A DNA stretch of 64,000 bases from Bacillota bacterium (GTDB taxonomy: Bacteria > Bacillota > Sulfobacillia > JAJYWN01 > JAJZPE01), in assembly GCA_021787335.1 (NCBI GenBank), contig JAJYMC010000019.1:6894-70893 (forward strand), read 5' to 3'. Below, piece by piece: positions 15,007 through 37,458 of the stretch (positions within the stretch are counted from its first letter, which is position 1; every line of letters begins with the position of its first letter). The position numbers were made by a program, and so were the translations under genes. The notes below the pieces were generated by a model that was not told the DNA's origin, made no database searches, and worked only from the letters and a program-made list of their open reading frames with translations.

Positions 15007-15705
15007 TCACACGGGGAAGGTCACGGCCAGGGTCCTGATGGGGGTCAGCCGGTCGCTCCCGGCGCCGACGGTCAGGACGGCCACGCTCATATCGTCGTGG
15101 GGCTTGCCGTGATCGGCCTTGACCGCCTCGTCGAGCAGCTTGGCGGCGACGGCGTCGGCCTGCTGCGGGCGGGCGGCGGCGACGATCTCGACCAGCCGGT
15201 CCTGCGGGGCGGCCAGGGCGCCGTCGGTGAAGGCGGCCACCACCAGTCCCGGGACCAGCGGCAGTTCGGCGATGGCCGGCTTCATCCGGTCGTAGACGCC
15301 GATGGGGGCCGAGTCCTCGCTGATGGACATGATCTCGGAGCCCTCCCCCGGCCTTGGCACGAGGGCCAGGACGGGCGGTTCACCGTTGCGCGAGATGACC
15401 ACGGTCTTCGTCCGCAGGTCGGCGGAGACGATGGCCAGCGTGGCCGAGACCTTGCCGTCCCGGGCGGCGAAGAGGAAGTCATGGACGGCGCGGGCGGCCG
15501 CCCCGTCGCGCGCGCCTTCGGCGATGAGGGCCATCGCCCGGCTGACGACCATCCGGCTGACGCCCTTGGCCGAACGGCCGTGGCCCTGGCCGTCGGCGAG
15601 GAGCACCGACAACCCGCCGTGGGGCCGCTCGACGACCTCCACCGTGTCTCCGCTCTCAGCCAGACCGAACTTGGGCGTCTTGGCCACTCCGACCCTGATC
15701 TCCAT
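15007..15705 (-). CDS. SpoIIE-like PP2C-family serine phosphatase
   Basis: 232 residues with ATG at 15705 behind AAGGAGG. It consists of the catalytic domain only. VLLADGQGHGRSAKG carries the first metal-binding Asp, AFTDGAL the middle one, and HGKPHDDMSVAVL the last Asp pair, as in SpoIIE/RsbU phosphatases. No membrane or sensor domain is attached. It lies 10 bp after selB and starts the PP2C-like / P-loop / HD set. A role in dephosphorylating an anti-sigma-type or spore regulator is inference. Confidence 0.8.
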   Translation of the reverse strand: MEIRVGVAKTPKFGLAESGDTVEVVERPHGGLSVLLADGQGHGRSAKGVSRMVVSRAMALIAEGARDGAAARAVHDFLFAARDGKVSATLAIVSADLRTKTVVISRNGEPPVLALVPRPGEGSEIMSISEDSAPIGVYDRMKPAIAELPLVPGLVVAAFTDGALAAPQDRLVEIVAAARPQQADAVAAKLLDEAVKADHGKPHDDMSVAVLTVGAGSDRLTPIRTLAVTFPV

Positions 15706-15715
15706 GCCGTCCTCC

Positions 15716-17629
15716 TTAGGCTTTCCCGATGATGGTCCGGGAGTCGCCGGCGCGCCGCGTGAAGCGGGCCTCGTCCAGCCGCTCGAGGAGCGGCACGGCC
15801 ACCCGGCGGGTGGTCCCCAGGACATCGCGGGCCTCGGCCGCCGTGAACGTCCGTCCGGTGAAGGCGGCCGCCAGGGCCCGCCTGGCCTCGGCAACCACGT
15901 CCTGGTGAAGGTACAGGTCGTCGCCCAGCTTGAGCAGATGCGGCGCGGCCAGGTTGGCGAAGACCTCGTCGGCCGGCCATTGGCCTGGGACGGCCGTCCG
16001 GGCCGCGCTCACGGCCTCTTCCACGGACGGCGGGTCGAGGAGGGCCTGGCGGTAGGCGCCCTCGAGGGCGGCCGCCGCGGCGGACTCGGCCGGCGCCGGA
16101 CGGACGGCCCACCCGTCCTCGGCGATGAGGTCGCGGTCGGCCCGAAAGCCCCGCGACTCCAGGTGGGAGACGAAGGCCGCGAACGGCTTGGGGGCGAGGC
16201 CCAGCCGGCTCCGAAGGTCTTCCTTGGGGTAACCGGTCCGCAGCGGGAAGCGCTGATGGTAATCGCCGACGGTGGCGGCGACGGCCGCCGCCAGACGCCC
16301 GAGGACGTCCGCGTCGCAGAGGTATTCGCCCCGCGCGTCGAGGGTGGTCGCGCGCCCTTGGGCGACCAGTGACCGCGCCGCCTCGGCCGCGACGGCCTCG
16401 GGGAGCGAGGTCGCCCGGGCCAGTTCGCCCACCGTGGTCGGGCCATTCCGGCGGCTCAGCGCCTCGGCCACGACGGCCTCCGGGGCCCCGCTCTCGACGG
16501 CCGACAGCCTGTCCAAGAGCGTCGCCCGCCGCCGCTCGGCGCGGTCGAGGGACGGTTCGATGACGACCCCGCCGCCGATGGTCGTCACCGGCGAATACGA
16601 ACGGATGACGAAGCGGTCCCCGCGCCCGGCCACCACGTCCTCTTCGGCGATGAGGACGGCCGGGGCGTCGGCGCCGGGGGTCAGCTCCTCGCGGTCGAGA
16701 AGCGAGACGCGGGCGATGACCTCGGTCGTGCCCAGGTGGAGGTGGACGCGGGCGGCTTGGACGAGCGGGCGCGGCGCCCCCGTCAGGAGGCGGACCCGGA
16801 CTCCGAGGCGGCGGGAGGCCCTGAAGCGACCCGGCTCGGCCAGGACCTGGCCGCGGTGCAGCCGGTCCGCGTCGACCCCGGACAGGTTGACGGCCACGCG
16901 CTGCCCGGCGAAAGCCCGCTCGACCTTGCGGTCATGGACCTCGAGCCCGCGAACGCGGGCGGCCAGGCCCTCCGGAAGGACCTCGATGGCCGCGTCACGG
17001 GTCACCGTGCCGGAGGTCAGCGTCCCGGTGACGACCGGGCCGAAGCCCGGGACGACGAAGGCGCGGTCGATGGGCAGGCGGGCGAAGCCGGTGGTGTCGC
17101 GCGGGGTGGCTTGGGCGACGACCTTCGCGATGGCCTCGGTCAGACCCGGCAGGCCCTCACCGGTGACCGCGGACACGGGCACCACCGGGGCGTCTTCGAG
17201 AAACGTCCCCCGGACCAGCTCCCGCACTTCTTCAATGATCAGGGTGAGCCAGTCGTGGTCGACCAGGTCGGCCTTGGTCACGGCGACGAGGCCGCGTTCG
17301 AGGCCCAGCAAGGACAGGATGTCCAAATGCTCGCGGGTCTGCGGCATGACCCCTTCGTCGGCCGCGATGACCAGGAGGACGAGGTCCACGCCGGTGGCCC
17401 CGGCCAGCATGTTCTTGATGAACTTCTCGTGCCCTGGGACGTCGACGAAGCTGACCGCGATCCCGCCGGGCAGGGCCAACCGGGCGAAGCCGAGGTCGAT
17501 GGAGATGCCGCGGGCCTTCTCCTCGGGCAGGCGGTCGGTATCGACCCCCGTCAGGGCTCGGATGAGGGCCGTCTTGCCGTGGTCGACGTGACCGGCCGTG
17601 CCCGCGACGACGTGGGCCGGAGCGCTCAT
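15716..17629 (-). CDS. selB: Selenocysteine-specific elongation factor SelB
   Basis: 637 residues. The GTPase domain has GTAGHVDHGKT (G1), DVPGHEKFI (G3) and TKAD (G4); EF-Tu-like domains 2-3 and an extended C-terminus of winged helices follow (PKEDLRSRLGL and FTAAEARDVLGTTRR are typical). SelB carries Sec-tRNA to UGA codons and binds the SECIS hairpin with its winged helices. The ATG overlaps the selA stop by 4 bp. Together with selA and the tRNA-Sec at 37.4 kb it shows a working selenocysteine pathway. Confidence 0.96.
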   Translation of the reverse strand: MSAPAHVVAGTAGHVDHGKTALIRALTGVDTDRLPEEKARGISIDLGFARLALPGGIAVSFVDVPGHEKFIKNMLAGATGVDLVLLVIAADEGVMPQTREHLDILSLLGLERGLVAVTKADLVDHDWLTLIIEEVRELVRGTFLEDAPVVPVSAVTGEGLPGLTEAIAKVVAQATPRDTTGFARLPIDRAFVVPGFGPVVTGTLTSGTVTRDAAIEVLPEGLAARVRGLEVHDRKVERAFAGQRVAVNLSGVDADRLHRGQVLAEPGRFRASRRLGVRVRLLTGAPRPLVQAARVHLHLGTTEVIARVSLLDREELTPGADAPAVLIAEEDVVAGRGDRFVIRSYSPVTTIGGGVVIEPSLDRAERRRATLLDRLSAVESGAPEAVVAEALSRRNGPTTVGELARATSLPEAVAAEAARSLVAQGRATTLDARGEYLCDADVLGRLAAAVAATVGDYHQRFPLRTGYPKEDLRSRLGLAPKPFAAFVSHLESRGFRADRDLIAEDGWAVRPAPAESAAAAALEGAYRQALLDPPSVEEAVSAARTAVPGQWPADEVFANLAAPHLLKLGDDLYLHQDVVAEARRALAAAFTGRTFTAAEARDVLGTTRRVAVPLLERLDEARFTRRAGDSRTIIGKA

Positions 17630-19065
17630 TGGGTCTCCCCCGCCCCGGGCGCGGGCGCGAGCCCGGCGAAGGCTTCGACGACCATGGAGACTTCCTCCCT
17701 GGCCAGCGTCCGGACATCGACGAGGACGCGTCCCTGACTGACCCGGACGAGCACCGGCGGATCGGCCCGGCGTAGGCCGGCCTCGATTTCGTTGGGCGTC
17801 ATTCCGTGGGCGGCCGGGGCGGCCGGCTCAAGGGCGATGACCCAGGTCGGCAGCTCCACCCCGGGCAGGGAACCGCCGCCGGCCGGTGAAGCGTCGGGCT
17901 CGGCGGTGAACCGGCCCAGGCCACCGGCCCGCAGGCGCAGGCGCGAGGCCAGCCGGCGGGCCTTGGCGGCGAGGGCCGTGGGCTCGGCCAGCAGAGCAGC
18001 TAAGGCCGGGACCTCGCGCTCGGCCCGCCCCGGCTCGAGGTAGGCGCGCAACGTGGCGACCAGCGCGGCGAGGGTCAGCTTGTCGATGCGGAGCGCCCGC
18101 ATCAGCTGGTTGGAGCGCATCCGGGCGATGACCTCGCGGCGCCCTACGGCGATGCCCGCCTGGGGCCCGCCGAGGAGCTTGTCCCCGCTGAAGGTGACGA
18201 CATCGGCGCCGGCCCTGACGCTCCGCTGCACGGTCGGCTCGGACGGCAGGCCGTGGGCGGCGAACTCGACCAGGGCGCCGCTACCGAGGTCCTCCATCAC
18301 CGGCAGGCCGCGGCGGCGACCGAGCTCGACCAGCTCGTCCAGGGCGACCTCGGCGACAAAGCCGATCACCCGGTAGTTGCTCGTATGCACCCGGAGCAGG
18401 AGCGCGGTCTCGGGGGTGATGGCCTCCTCGTAATCGCGCAGGTAGGTCTTGTTCGTCGTCCCCACCTCGACGAGCCGGGCGCCGCTTTTGGCCATCACCG
18501 CCGGGACGCGGAAGGCGCCGCCGATCTCGACCAGCTGGCCGCGGGAGACGATGACCTCTCGGCCCTCGGCCAACGTGTCGAGGGCCAGGAGGACGGCGGC
18601 GGCATTGTTGTTGACGACCAGGGCGGCCTCGGCCCCGGTCACCTCGCGGATGAGCCCCTCGACGTGATCGAGGCGAGACCCTCGCTCCCCGGTCGTCAGG
18701 TCCAGTTCAAGGTCGGAGTAACCGCCGGCGACGGAGGCCACCGCCTGGCGGGCGGCCTCCGACAACACGGCCCGGCCGAGGTTGGTGTGCAGGGCGACGC
18801 CCGTCCCGTTGATGACCCGGCGCGGTCCCCCCTTGCCCCTGGCCCGCAGGCGATCCTCGACCGTGGCGGCGATGGCCGACAGGACGGCCTCCCGCGAGCC
18901 GGCGGCGGTGGTCGCTGGGGCCTCCCCGGCCCGAGCGGCGTCGATGGCGTCACGGATCTCTCGGATGACGAGGGCGCGAGGATAAGCGTCGACCGCGCCC
19001 CGGGCCTCGAGGGCCCGCCAGACCCGGTCGACTGATGGGAGTTGGCGGAGTGCGTTCTTGGTCAA
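17626..19065 (-). CDS. selA: L-seryl-tRNA(Sec) selenium transferase SelA
   Basis: 479 residues. SelA is a PLP enzyme that turns Ser-tRNA(Sec) into Sec-tRNA(Sec) using selenophosphate. Seen: RQLPSVDRVWRAL at the start, INGTGVALHTNLGRA, and the PLP-lysine region VTFSGDKLLGGPQAG near residue 290. A longer frame opens at 19173, but TTG at 19065 is preferred: GGAGGT lies 9 bp upstream, the N-terminus then matches the family, and the -35 box of the likely promoter overlaps 19173. It heads the selA-selB unit. Confidence 0.93.
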   Translation of the reverse strand: MTKNALRQLPSVDRVWRALEARGAVDAYPRALVIREIRDAIDAARAGEAPATTAAGSREAVLSAIAATVEDRLRARGKGGPRRVINGTGVALHTNLGRAVLSEAARQAVASVAGGYSDLELDLTTGERGSRLDHVEGLIREVTGAEAALVVNNNAAAVLLALDTLAEGREVIVSRGQLVEIGGAFRVPAVMAKSGARLVEVGTTNKTYLRDYEEAITPETALLLRVHTSNYRVIGFVAEVALDELVELGRRRGLPVMEDLGSGALVEFAAHGLPSEPTVQRSVRAGADVVTFSGDKLLGGPQAGIAVGRREVIARMRSNQLMRALRIDKLTLAALVATLRAYLEPGRAEREVPALAALLAEPTALAAKARRLASRLRLRAGGLGRFTAEPDASPAGGGSLPGVELPTWVIALEPAAPAAHGMTPNEIEAGLRRADPPVLVRVSQGRVLVDVRTLAREEVSMVVEAFAGLAPAPGAGETQ

Positions 19066-19145
19066 ACCGGTGGGACCTCCGTTCGGCGCTTGCCGCCCGC
19101 CTTTTGGGACGCCTTCTACTTCTCCCTTTGGTTTGGGTTTCCTTT

Positions 19146-19173
19146 TTATTATCCCTTGACGGGGCTCGGTCAA
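19146..19173 (-). promoter_or_regulatory. Probable promoter of selAB
   Basis: Minus strand TTGACC (19168-19173) and TAATAA (19146-19151) are 16 bp apart, between the amidase terminator and the selA start. Confidence 0.45.
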
Positions 19174-19196: not shown

Positions 19197-19220
19197 AAAA
19201 AGCCGCCCTAGGCGGGCGGC
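19197..19220 (-). terminator. Terminator of the amidase gene
   Basis: Minus strand GCCGCCC-GCCTA-GGGCGGC (19220-19202) is followed by TTTTT. It lies 23 bp after the second amidase stop (19243) but 240 bp after the first one (19462), which argues that the gene really ends at 19243. Confidence 0.75.
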
Positions 19221-19242
19221 CAAGCGGAAGACGTTCGACGGC

Positions 19243-19464
19243 TCAAACGCTCCTGGGCGGCCAGGGCTTCCAGACCTGCGGTCCCGGCGGCGTCCTGATC
19301 TCCTCGCCCCGGGCTTGTGCGGTCTCGGGCCGCGCCGTTTCGGCTGGCGAGTCGGGCTTGTCGGGCGGCCCGGGCTGTTCGACGGGCGGCCACGGTTGCT
19401 TGTCGGGTACCTGCCACGGCACGTTCTTCGTGGCTTCCAGCCACCTTTGCGCGGCGGCCCCTCA
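19243..19464 (-). other. In-frame continuation of the amidase beyond a TGA codon (possible selenocysteine or nonsense mutation)
   Basis: After TGA at 19462-19464 the same frame runs 72 codons to TGA at 19243-19245. Its codons are G/C-ending and its composition continues the Pro-rich tail of the amidase, with a Trp/Pro pattern (VPWQVPDKQPWPPVE ... VWKPWPP). The transcription terminator comes only 23 bp after the second stop. It may be read by selenocysteine insertion, or the gene may carry a recent nonsense mutation. Confidence 0.5.
19430..19444 (-). promoter_or_regulatory. SECIS-like hairpin after the in-frame TGA
   Basis: Minus strand GTGGCT-GGA-AGCCAC is a perfect 6-bp stem with a G-first triloop, starting 18 nt after the TGA. 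Spacing and a G at the loop start agree with the loose bacterial SECIS model; the loop is shorter than in well-studied cases. Confidence 0.35.
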
Positions 19465-20697
19465 ACCGTGGGGCCTCACCGGCGAGCCGGCGGGCTTCGG
19501 CCGTGGCCAGCGGATGAATTCCTCCGGCATTGGCGGCATTCCGGTATCCTGGGGCTTCCCGTCGATGACCTCGGCGGCACGGTCGCTCACCCCGACGCTG
19601 GAGAGGACCGGCCCCGGCGGGGCCACCTGGAGAATCTGGCCACCGGCAAAGGCCAATGCAGGCACCGGACGGGCATGCGGCTGAGGTTGGCTCATGCCCA
19701 TTTGGCGGCGCGCCGTCACCTGGGTCATGGTAACCGGCCCCGGTTGAGCCGGAGCGGCCTGGGTGGGCGGCCCGGGCGCGACTTCGGCAGGCGGCATCGG
19801 CGCGGCTTCGGCAGGCGGCATCGGCGCGGCTTCGGCAGGCGGCATCGGCGCGGCTTCGGCCCGCGCCACGGCCACGGCCAGCTGTGCCTGGGGATGCCCG
19901 GACGCGTCGGCCGGAGGCCCGGCGGGCCGCCCGGTATGGCGCAGTTCCTCGGTGGTCTCAACGAAGTCCTCCATCTCGGCCCCGAAGTGCCGGCAGAGAC
20001 CGCGGTAGATGGACCGGGCGCAGAGCTTGAGGTAATCCTCGTTGAGGAGGAGCCGCTCCTGCTCCGGGTAGTGGTGGCTGGCGCACTCGATGACCACGGC
20101 CGGAACGCCGGATCCCAGGAGAAGCCCGTTGTACCCGCCGATGTCCCGGGCCCTCAGGCGGAAGCGCCGAAGGAACGGCGGCATCCCGCCATAGGTGACC
20201 ATCGCCGCGGCGATGCAGCCGGCCAGCCGGAACGAGGCTAGCGGCCGCCGGTAGTTGTAGACGACGGCCGGACGCAGACCACCGCTGGCCGGGAGACCTT
20301 CGGTGTGCAAGAGGATGAAGACGTCAGGGCGTTCTCTCTTGACGATGGCCAGCCGCTCCTCGAGCGGCAGCGTCTCGTCCTGAGCCCTGGTCAGGACGAC
20401 CCTCGCTCCGGCCGAACGTAACAACGCCGCCAGCGCCCGGGCGATGCCCAGGACGCCTTCGGCCTCGCAGTACCCCGTCACTCCATGGCCGCCACGGTCT
20501 CTGCCCCCGTGGCCCGGGTCGATGACCACCGTCCGTCCCTGGACGACCGAGTTGAGATGCACGGTGTTGGAGTCGACGTCATAGAAGAACGGGACTCCCA
20601 GCCCCCGCCCGGCGGCCCAAAGAGTCTCTGGGAGGTCGGAGAACAGCCCATCCGGATGAGCGATCTCGGAGTTCCTGATGACCAGCCTGACCAACAA
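19462..20697 (-). CDS. N-acetylmuramoyl-L-alanine amidase (CwlD-like, Amidase_3)
   Basis: 411 residues up to the first TGA. VVIDPGHGGRDRGGHG, EAEGVLGIARALAA, LLHTEG and VVIECASHH give the zinc ligands (His, Glu, His) and catalytic Glu of Amidase_3 enzymes, which cut the peptide from muramic acid in peptidoglycan. CwlD members act in spore cortex formation. An N-terminal 75 residues precede the catalytic domain; no signal peptide is obvious. The tail is Pro/Ala-rich with three exact PPAEAAPM-type repeats. The first TGA (19462-19464) is followed by 72 more coding-like codons in the same frame (see 19243-19464). TTG start behind GGGGGTGGG. Confidence 0.85.
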   Translation of the reverse strand: MLVRLVIRNSEIAHPDGLFSDLPETLWAAGRGLGVPFFYDVDSNTVHLNSVVQGRTVVIDPGHGGRDRGGHGVTGYCEAEGVLGIARALAALLRSAGARVVLTRAQDETLPLEERLAIVKRERPDVFILLHTEGLPASGGLRPAVVYNYRRPLASFRLAGCIAAAMVTYGGMPPFLRRFRLRARDIGGYNGLLLGSGVPAVVIECASHHYPEQERLLLNEDYLKLCARSIYRGLCRHFGAEMEDFVETTEELRHTGRPAGPPADASGHPQAQLAVAVARAEAAPMPPAEAAPMPPAEAAPMPPAEVAPGPPTQAAPAQPGPVTMTQVTARRQMGMSQPQPHARPVPALAFAGGQILQVAPPGPVLSSVGVSDRAAEVIDGKPQDTGMPPMPEEFIRWPRPKPAGSPVRPHG

Positions 20698-20793
20698 GAC
20701 CCACCCCCATGGCCTGTGACACTTGCCCTATAATCTATGTCCCGTCCCATGGGGGTGTTCGGGCGGGGCGGGCCCACTTCCGGACAAGAGACA

Positions 20794-20819
20794 ACCGGCC
20801 CCGGTGAGCCGGGGCCGGT
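20794..20819 (-). terminator. Terminator of the CAP-domain gene
   Basis: An 11-bp perfect stem ACCGGCCCCGG / CCGGGGCCGGT with a 4-nt loop, 48 bp after the stop of the CAP gene. The tail is TGTCTCTTGTC. Confidence 0.65.
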
Positions 20820-20867
20820 CGGTCCTTGCGCTTGTCAGTTATCTTCGTCCCAGGTCCCCGCAGCCTA

Positions 20868-21728
20868 TCAGTTCCCGATGAAGAACTGGGCCACCATCGC
20901 GCCAGAGGGCGACATGTCGATGACGCCGATCCCGACCTCGGTGTAGGTCGAGTTCAGGAGGTTCATCCGGTGCGTCGGGCTGGCCAGGAGCCGTAAGTGC
21001 ACGGAATAGACGCTGTTGGCCTCGCCGAGGTTCTCACCGGCGGTGGTGAAGTGGACGCCGGCCTTCTTCATCATGTCGAAGGCCGTTCCGAGGGTCGGCG
21101 AGGTGTGGGCGAAGTAGTTGTTGGTCACCATGTCCTGAGCCTTCTGACGAGCGAGGGCCGTCAGGGTCAGGTTGAGCTTGAGGGGCGGCAGTCCGTTGTC
21201 GGCCCGGGCCTGGTTGACGGCGTTGAGCATCCACGTCTCCTCAGCCGTCGGGGTGACCTGCGCGGGCTGCGGCGCCGGGGTGGGCGTCGGAGCGGGCGCG
21301 GGCGCGGGGGCCGGCGCCGGTTGCGGAGCCGGAGTCGGGGCCGGAGCGGGCGCGGGCGCGGGGGCCGGCGCCGGTTGCGGAGCCGGGGTCGGGGCCGGAG
21401 CGGGCGCGGGGGCCGGCGCCGGTTGCGGCGCCGGGGTCGGCGCCGGAGCGGGCGCGGGCGCGGGGGCCGGCGCCGGTTGCGGCGTCGTATGGGTGCGCCA
21501 ATGCCAGAGTGAGTACCAGGTGTACCAGCCACCGTACCGGTAGACCGGAGCCTGGGTCGTGGTTGGTTGCGCGACCGGCCGGCCTTGAATGGTGCCAATC
21601 GAGGCTCCATGGTAGTAATACGTGAGGTACCAGGATGCAGCCGCGGGACGTGCCGGTGCCAGAGCCAGCAACACGAACGCCGCCAGCAAGACCGCAAAGA
21701 GCTTAACTGACCATGCTCTCTTCTTCAA
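20868..21728 (-). CDS. Secreted CAP (SCP/YkwD) domain protein with Pro-Ala linker
   Basis: 286 residues from TTG at 21728, chosen because GAGGGGAGCG precedes it and a signal peptide then begins at once (LKKRAWSVKLFAVLLAA ... AAAS). Next comes a Tyr/Trp-rich segment (YRYGGWYTWYSLWHW), then a linker of four near-identical PAPAPAPTPAPQ units. The C-terminal CAP domain contains MLNAVNQARADNGL, YFAHTSP and AGENLGE, like YkwD/SafA-associated proteins of spore formers. CAP domains are extracellular; their activity in bacteria is unclear. A decayed copy of part of this gene lies at 26093-26160. Confidence 0.88.
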   Translation of the reverse strand: MKKRAWSVKLFAVLLAAFVLLALAPARPAAASWYLTYYYHGASIGTIQGRPVAQPTTTQAPVYRYGGWYTWYSLWHWRTHTTPQPAPAPAPAPAPAPTPAPQPAPAPAPAPAPTPAPQPAPAPAPAPAPAPTPAPQPAPAPAPAPAPTPTPAPQPAQVTPTAEETWMLNAVNQARADNGLPPLKLNLTLTALARQKAQDMVTNNYFAHTSPTLGTAFDMMKKAGVHFTTAGENLGEANSVYSVHLRLLASPTHRMNLLNSTYTEVGIGVIDMSPSGAMVAQFFIGN

Positions 21729-22051
21729 ATTCGCTCCCCTCTCGGACTTGGATTTCGCGGACAAGCCCGTCATCCTGAGGGTAGCCGATTTCCCGGCGAC
21801 ATGTCAAAATGCCAAACGGTTCAGGGTTTGACGAAAGGTGACATAGATACCAGCCTAATTCTGTAAACCACCAATTGACGTTATTTTAGACAGTGCTGGA
21901 AACAAAAGGGCAGCGTAAATGGCTTATGTCGAGCACCATTATCTGGCACCGTTCATAACATGAAGCGGGATTGGGGAATCACCCCGTCCCGCTTCACGCA
22001 TGACGCTGGGTATATAGTCTAAAAAAGGAAGGAGGTGTAAGCCAACAAACC
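21729..22051. other. Intergenic region between divergent CAP and coat-like genes
   Basis: No gene is seen in these 323 bp. They should hold promoters for both neighbours; a minus-strand TTGACA lies in it (about 21801-21806), but no good -10 box goes with it. A strong hairpin is at 21961-21996 and the coat-like gene has GGAAGGAGGTG about 14 bp before its ATG. Confidence 0.5.
21961..21996. promoter_or_regulatory. Strong inverted repeat upstream of the coat-like gene
   Basis: TGAAGCGGGA pairs with TCCCGCTTCA around an inner GGGG-AATCA-CCCC stem. There is no U-run, so it may be an RNA leader hairpin or operator rather than a terminator. Confidence 0.4.
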
Positions 22052-22762
22052 ATGGATATCCAGAAGCCCATCAGGGGGGGCAACGGAGTCGTCCCAGGGC
22101 CGTGTACCGAGACCGCGCCGTGCCCGCCGATCACCGAGATCGTCTGCGTTGACGTGAAGAAGGTCTTCGATTCCTGCTCCAACGTACAGTGCGAGGAGTT
22201 CTGCGTCGAGTTCACCGCCCCCGGTGTCGTCATCACCCCGGCGGCGCCGGCGCCCACCCCGCCCTTCACCTTCGTCAGCTGCACCGCGGGGCCGGCTTCG
22301 GTCGGCCCGATCTCGGAGTCCGCGGTCCCGGGGGAACCGCTCCTGCAGCGGATCACCGCCACCATCTGCGGACCGGCGAGCGTCGTTTTCACCGACTCCT
22401 TGGGGGTCACGTACACCATCTCCATCCCGGAAACCTACATTTGCTTCGACAAAGACGTCCTCCTGTACATGCCCAACCCGTCGATGATGTTCGGCCGGAT
22501 CGAAGTGGTGACCTTCACCTGCCTTGGCGCCCGTTTCACGACCACCGACACCGTCCCGACCGTCTGCGTCACCATCGGCCTACGGGCGATTGTCAAGAGC
22601 GAGGGGCGCGTGCAGCTCTTGATCGGCGCCTACGGGTACTGCCCGGTCCCGCCGGCCTGCCGCGAACTCGGCACCCTCTGCGAGTCGTTCGAGGCCGCCC
22701 CGTTCCCGACCGTCTATCCGCCGCAGATCTTCGATGTGCCAACGGATGAACCAGAGGGGTAG
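22052..22762 (+). CDS. Cysteine-rich, spore-coat-like hypothetical protein
   Basis: 236 residues, no signal peptide and no membrane helix, with about 15 cysteines. Residues 25-55 read ITEIVCVDVKKVFDSC followed by NVQCEEFCVEF. A V-x-KV(F/Y)DSC motif of this kind recurs, as I recall, in clostridial cysteine-rich coat-type proteins; I cannot confirm the family. The rest is beta-rich with repeated Val/Thr strands. A strong GGAAGGAGGTG precedes the ATG. The neighbours (CwlD-like amidase, YkwD-like CAP protein, HtrA-like protease) agree with an envelope or spore role. Confidence 0.6.
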   Translation: MDIQKPIRGGNGVVPGPCTETAPCPPITEIVCVDVKKVFDSCSNVQCEEFCVEFTAPGVVITPAAPAPTPPFTFVSCTAGPASVGPISESAVPGEPLLQRITATICGPASVVFTDSLGVTYTISIPETYICFDKDVLLYMPNPSMMFGRIEVVTFTCLGARFTTTDTVPTVCVTIGLRAIVKSEGRVQLLIGAYGYCPVPPACRELGTLCESFEAAPFPTVYPPQIFDVPTDEPEG

Positions 22763-37306: not shown

Positions 37307-37362
37307 GGAGCCGTTCTCCACCTGGAATCGACAGGCGGAGAAACGGCTCCGAATGTTTTTTT
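37307..37362 (+). terminator. Terminator of the hydrogenase operon
   Basis: GGAGCCGTTCTCCACCTG pairs with CAGGCGGAGAAACGGCTCC (ending 37350) with one bulge, followed by GAATGTTTTTTT. It is very stable and may also serve the opposite strand after tRNA-Sec. Confidence 0.85.
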
Positions 37363-37458
37363 GGCGGGAGTATGTGGGAATCGAACCCACCACCCGCGGG
37401 ATCACCGCAGGCCGCCGGCTTTGAAGGCCGGGAGACCCACCAGGACCCAGCTACTCCC
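37362..37458 (-). tRNA. selC: tRNA-Sec (anticodon UCA)
   Basis: 97 nt on the minus strand. The anticodon loop CTTCAAA holds UCA in a CCGGC/GCCGG stem. A 6-bp D stem with only a 4-nt loop, a long variable arm (CCTGCGG / CCGCGGG) and T arm GTGGG-TTCGATT-CCCAC are typical of bacterial tRNA-Sec. The acceptor pairs GGGAGTA with TACTCCC, then G73 and an encoded CCA; the eighth pair would be a G-A mismatch. The 3' end touches the poly-T of the hydrogenase terminator. It lies 18 kb from selAB. Confidence 0.93.

Follow-up and report, generated by a model that had tools for sequence, protein, structure and literature searches.

Bacterial selenoproteins of the SelB/SECIS type, such as SelD and GrdB, have in common an in-frame TGA, a hairpin whose small loop begins with G and lies 16-37 nt downstream, and the presence of selA, selB and tRNA-Sec. 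Nearly all known selenoproteins have homologues with Cys at the selenocysteine (Sec) site. In animals, thioredoxin reductase ends with Gly-Cys-Sec-Gly. According to the bacterial SECIS (bSECIS) model (PMC13188914), the RNA element consists of a stem of 4-16 bp and a loop of 3-9 nt, with a G in the first two loop positions, at a distance of 16-37 nt from the UGA. A review on the selenoproteomes of prokaryotes from 2026 (PMC13188914) does not contain the terms amidase, peptidoglycan, cell wall or spore, and our searches of the literature turned up no selenoprotein that is a peptidoglycan amidase.

The closest described amidases are CwlD (TIGR02883; PDB 7rag, CwlD-GerS) and mycobacterial Rv3717 (PDB 4m6g, 4m6h and 4m6i). 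The amidase analyzed here shares with CwlD the Amidase_3 fold, the zinc ligands, the catalytic Glu and spore-forming hosts, but it differs in an additional N-terminal region and in a tail that is rich in Pro and contains an in-frame TGA. With Rv3717 it also shares the Amidase_3 fold, but Rv3717 is without Sec and belongs to another subfamily, for which the present amidase, at 30 bits, stays below the cut-off of 335. The PDB entries of Rv3717 are titled "reduced" forms, a sign that the redox state of the Cys was taken into account. We propose that the gene very probably founds a new selenoprotein family, in which an Amidase_3 enzyme is predicted from sequence to carry Sec in a flexible C-terminal tail. 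Compared with SelD and GrdB, such a protein would have a peptidoglycan amidase domain rather than a redox domain and its Sec in the C-terminal tail, and no Cys homologue of it was found. It would resemble animal thioredoxin reductase in having Sec near the C-terminus, after a Gly and in a mobile tail, but without the Cys-Sec pair or a reductase domain, and with a bacterial SECIS that adjoins the codon.

The amidase gene and its two in-frame TGA codons

The gene lies on the minus strand of the window, which is the whole 64,000-nt stretch of DNA analyzed. It starts with TTG at 20697 and runs for 411 codons (20697-19465) to a first TGA at 19462-19464, beyond which the same frame stays open for 72 codons (19246-19461) to a second TGA at 19243-19245. 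When the first TGA is read through, the product (19246-20697) has 484 residues with U at position 412, exactly as the first-pass annotation had described the frame, both TGAs, the continuation and the product. TGA terminates several other genes of the window and thus is not reassigned.

Residues 57-235 match the Amidase_3 profile (PF01520, E 2.7e-28), and the zinc ligands His63, Glu78 and His131 and the catalytic Glu204 are intact in the window protein and its two close orthologues. The predicted structure of the domain (pLDDT 86) has the Amidase_3 fold, with CwlD and other amidases of known structure as its nearest neighbours, while the tail that holds the proposed Sec is predicted to be disordered and outside the catalytic domain. 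A fold of the full protein predicted from three alignment rows was useless (pLDDT 32). The first-pass annotation called the amidase CwlD-like; the protein is not a CwlD equivalog, as it scores 68.4 bits for TIGR02883 against a cut-off of 221.55. A paralogue in the same genome (L005) is nearer to CwlD, with 181.4 bits over the matched stretch.

Among 60 relatives, full orthologues were found only in G001, of the same genus (72% identical), and in G002, of the same family (about 55%); these two and the window genome are referred to as f1. Both orthologues have TGA at the same residue and also end the long frame with TGA. The three proteins share KPAGS..(R/K)PHG-U-G(A/G/S)A..WLEA, then a variable linker and QVWKPWPP(R/K), with the second TGA within 2-6 codons. 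The linker is in frame but differs greatly in length, so that the tails comprise 72, 53 and 152 codons. The long tail was found in these three genomes only, a search of the class (154 genomes) having found it in none besides, and scans of genome contigs and viral contigs matched only the known G001 contig.

The first-pass annotation had named a recent nonsense mutation, for example CGA to TGA, as the main alternative. The same TGA and tail recur in the independently assembled orthologues, which are 72% and about 55% identical, and neither close relative has CGA, TGG or any other sense codon at this position; the TGA, the tail and the hairpin described below are all kept. By these comparisons the window TGA is not a recent nonsense mutation, and a mutation or sequencing error confined to one genome has a negligible probability.

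Translation of the f1 tail is well supported. The GC contents at the three codon positions are 0.72/0.62/0.85 in the tail, 0.80/0.61/0.80 in the coding linker and 0.51/0.66/0.60 past the second stop; the tail pattern is thus coding-like and unlike that of the DNA past the second stop, which bears out the coding-type third positions noticed earlier. The dN/dS values past the TGA are 0.43-0.55, slightly higher than in the linker before it. Little is conserved in control frames past the stops of neighbouring genes, apart from short matches after selA, which overlaps selB, and after secF. The same evidence bears on the possibility that the first TGA is an ordinary stop, so that the protein ends in P-x-G-TGA everywhere and the conserved DNA beyond it is a non-coding 3'-end element. 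Such a reading would fit the TGA that directly follows Gly in every orthologue, the extensions of only five codons and one codon in two further lineages (G037 and G021, respectively) and the common use of TGA as a normal stop in this genome. Against it, the QVWKPWPP end block is kept in phase over 72, 53 and 152 open codons with differences at third positions only, the codon-position GC is of the coding type, and a terminator follows the second stop but none follows the first. We therefore regard an ordinary stop as quite unlikely.

Downstream hairpins and deeper relatives

A SECIS-like hairpin, GUGGCU[GGA]AGCCAC (19433-19447, minus strand), follows the first TGA of the window gene, with a perfect 6-bp stem that starts at +18 and the loop GGA at +24, in agreement with the perfect hairpin with a G-first loop claimed at 18 nt past the TGA. 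Its energy of -7.2 kcal/mol narrowly misses the -7.5 required of such elements. The hairpins of G001 and G002 both have 7 bp; the loop is at +24 in G001 and, despite a codon deletion before the hairpin, at +21 in G002. A long alternative fold of the region was not common to the three genomes, and the local hairpin was used. In this GC-rich window the loose bSECIS geometry is found after about 70% of all TGAs, and such a fit alone is hence no evidence; a strict form, defined as a perfect stem of at least 6 bp with a 3-nt G-first loop at +16 to +37, follows 3.4% of them. Compared with synonymous recoding of the peptides, the three f1 hairpins gave a joint P of 0.00125, for three related sequences whose rows are not independent. 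Part of their conservation is due to the peptide, as the hairpin sits on the conserved WLEA codons.

SelA, SelB, SelD and tRNA-Sec are all encoded in the genome, and SelB was found in all 11 genomes tested, all of them from the same class. SelD contains TGA in G000-G003 and GrdB does so in G001, and the hairpins of both have 8 bp and 3-nt G-first loops. As further comparators, FdhA and MvhD were rejected because their matches in these genomes are without TGA, as was HdrA, which seems to have Cys.

Four further lineages encode proteins that share the N-terminal region, the amidase domain and the Pro-rich tail and have Gly-TGA near the C-terminus. In genus f28 (G029, G047 and G059) the proteins end in PFG-TGA-HRRAYGREPExxx-TGA. 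Between G047 and G059, 28/30 nt are identical after the TGA and 23/30 before it, compared with 6-24/30 after the stops of neighbouring genes. The orthologue of G319, from another class, ends in PSG-TGA-GKKRVPGREPGEV-TGA; its short extension, written as PSG-U-GKKRVPGREPGE, is conserved with PFG-U-HRRAYGREPE of f28. The likeness of the two GREP tails has a match P of 0.00045, and their score was reached by 0 of 515 control extensions. The GREP codons themselves form the hairpin, CGGC[CGUGA]GCCG in f28 and TGCCCGGC[CGGGA]GCCGGGTG in G319, so that selection on the RNA may explain the likeness of the peptides. The f28 hairpin is short, with 4 bp and a shuffle P of 0.14-0.28 in G029 and G047. The protein of G021 ends in RSG-TGA-D-TGA, with a 7-bp hairpin, GCGGGCA[UGGAU]UGCCCGC, beyond the one-residue extension, and that of G037 ends in PFG-TGA-RKPWS-TAG, with a weak hairpin (P 0.29). 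Between RKPWS and the f1 end KPWPP there is no significant likeness (P 0.16). No second clear amidase orthologue was found in the class of G319.

By the bSECIS-type criterion the hairpins of f1, f28, G319 and G021 fit, while that of G037 is weak. Combined over the five lineages, the hairpins have a shuffle P of 5e-5 to 2e-4. The hairpin core has two-sided changes at all seven pairs and a covariation score of 0.719, compared with 0.176 for shuffled sequences, in a set whose registers were picked by hand and that includes a neighbouring gene of G319. Judged by its distribution among these sequences, the TGA site is old and C-terminal. No Cys was found in place of Sec among the nine orthologues examined; the sequence of G043 is interrupted by Ns.

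We infer from the genomic context, the hairpins and the recurrence of the codon in Sec-decoding genomes that the residue inserted at the UGA is, with good probability, Sec. Readthrough of the UGA without selenium, in which a near-cognate tRNA or weak termination would add the tail to some of the protein, would also account for a tail that is coding in the three f1 genomes, and the inserted residue cannot be read from sequence alone. Against it speak the selAB genes that adjoin the amidase in f1 and the occurrence, in several lineages, of SECIS-like hairpins with the spacing required, in genomes that all decode Sec where tested. We consider selenium-free readthrough unlikely.

In G319, the gene directly after the amidase and on the same strand (L134) encodes a thioredoxin-like protein that weakly resembles DUF1462/YuzD. 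It has an in-frame TGA (TEQCYG-U-HGT) followed by a hairpin, GGCCUCU[GGA]AGAGGUC, at +21, and is a second candidate selenoprotein. Our literature searches found no YuzD selenoprotein.

Genomic surroundings and transcription signals

The amidase gene is followed by selA for selenocysteine synthase (17626-19173; PF03841, E 3.6e-145) and selB for the Sec-specific elongation factor (15716-17629; SelB winged-helix domains, TIGR00475 over cut-off), both on the minus strand, and a tRNA-Sec gene with anticodon tca was called at 37362-37458 of the same strand. The first-pass annotation was correct in placing selA-selB next to the amidase and tRNA-Sec within the window. Upstream of the amidase is a gene for a CAP-domain protein (20868-21773, minus strand; PF00188, E 1.6e-16). 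The order CAP-amidase-selA-selB is common to all three f1 genomes, with tRNA-Sec a few kb away at most in G001 and G002, and the CAP gene is also upstream of the amidase in G037 and G319.

An intrinsic terminator (19201-19221, minus strand) starts 21 nt past the second stop, and a similar stem with a T-run is found in G001 and G002; its presence had been predicted correctly, while the distance had been given as 23 bp. Another terminator (20792-20821, minus strand) separates the amidase from the CAP gene. With terminators on both sides, the amidase appears to form a separate unit, the end of which is marked by the second stop.

In each of the three f1 genomes the amidase immediately precedes selA-selB, a placement that would also be expected of a Sec-sensing leader, in which readthrough at the UGA reports the Sec supply and regulates the downstream selA. 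The terminator between the amidase and selA speaks against such a leader, and no selA was found in the stretches fetched around the orthologues of the other lineages. Because these distant orthologues keep the TGA and no selA was found near them, a selA-regulatory role is very unlikely, and the adjacency of selA, found only in f1, is not needed for the trait.

A sigma-K-type promoter motif, GAACA-N16-CATANNNTA (20731-20760, minus strand), lies upstream of the amidase and is the one match in the window, with 0.00 expected; the sigma-K consensus was used for this motif. It occurs with equal spacing upstream of the amidase in G002 and G001, with G for A as the last base in G001, and CATANNNTA is also found upstream of the amidase in G319 but was not found there in f28, G021 or G037. 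A sigK gene scores over cut-off in G000 and G002, while none does so in the fragmented G001. Neither the amidase nor selA was found to have a sigma-70 promoter. The sigma-K-type promoter suggests that the amidase may be expressed late in the mother cell.

Several other features were observed around the gene. The selA leader (about 19100-19160 of the window) contains a run that the three f1 genomes have conserved, ATAATAAAAA(A)GGAAACCC(A/C)AACCAAAGGGAGAA(A)GTAGA, with G and C runs in a pseudoknot-like arrangement, which may be a promoter or a regulatory element. A 236-aa Cys-containing protein without a Pfam match, possibly a spore protein, is encoded at 22052-22762 and is conserved in G002 and G037, where it likewise lies close to the CAP gene. 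Directly after selB, at 15007-15600, is a SpoIIE-type phosphatase domain.

Predicted mechanism and implications

Based on these results, we propose that the product is a zinc-dependent N-acetylmuramoyl-L-alanine amidase with a long Pro/Ala-rich C-terminal tail and one selenocysteine. The hairpin at 18-32 nt past the UGA (19462-19464) would recruit SelB and Sec-tRNA, Sec would be inserted and translation would then proceed to the second TGA, while ribosomes that stop at the first UGA would yield a tail-less amidase. Three points count against insertion of Sec: no Cys homologue was found, the residue would lie in a tail predicted to be disordered, and P-x-G-TGA may be an ancestral stop in those lineages whose extensions are shortest.

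The role of the tail Sec is a guess. Cys226, in the last helix, is present in 7/9 family members but in 0/21 other amidases, and Cys205, beside the catalytic Glu, is present in 4/9 and 2/21, respectively; we conjecture that the two are candidate partners of the tail Sec. If expression takes place late in the mother cell, as the sigma-K-type promoter may indicate, the tail Sec might form a redox link, for instance by bonding to coat proteins or by pairing as a selenenylsulfide with Cys226 of the amidase domain, which is specific to the family, and such a link would switch or anchor the amidase in the spore envelope. It is thus possible, though doubtful, that the family is an old one whose late-sporulation mother-cell product is tethered or redox-switched in the spore envelope by its C-terminal Sec, and which would be the first spore-wall selenoprotein. 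In the f28 orthologues (L078, L079 and L080), Tyr replaces the catalytic Glu204 and the zinc ligands remain, so that the f28 protein may bind rather than cut.

If Sec is inserted as proposed, the amidases would be a selenoprotein family not described before, with Sec in an unusual place. Selenoproteins without Cys homologues slip past searches for Cys/Sec pairs and are annotated as ending at the UGA, and other C-terminal Sec sites have perhaps been overlooked as stop codons. Selenium biochemistry would then reach from redox enzymes to the remodelling of the cell or spore wall.
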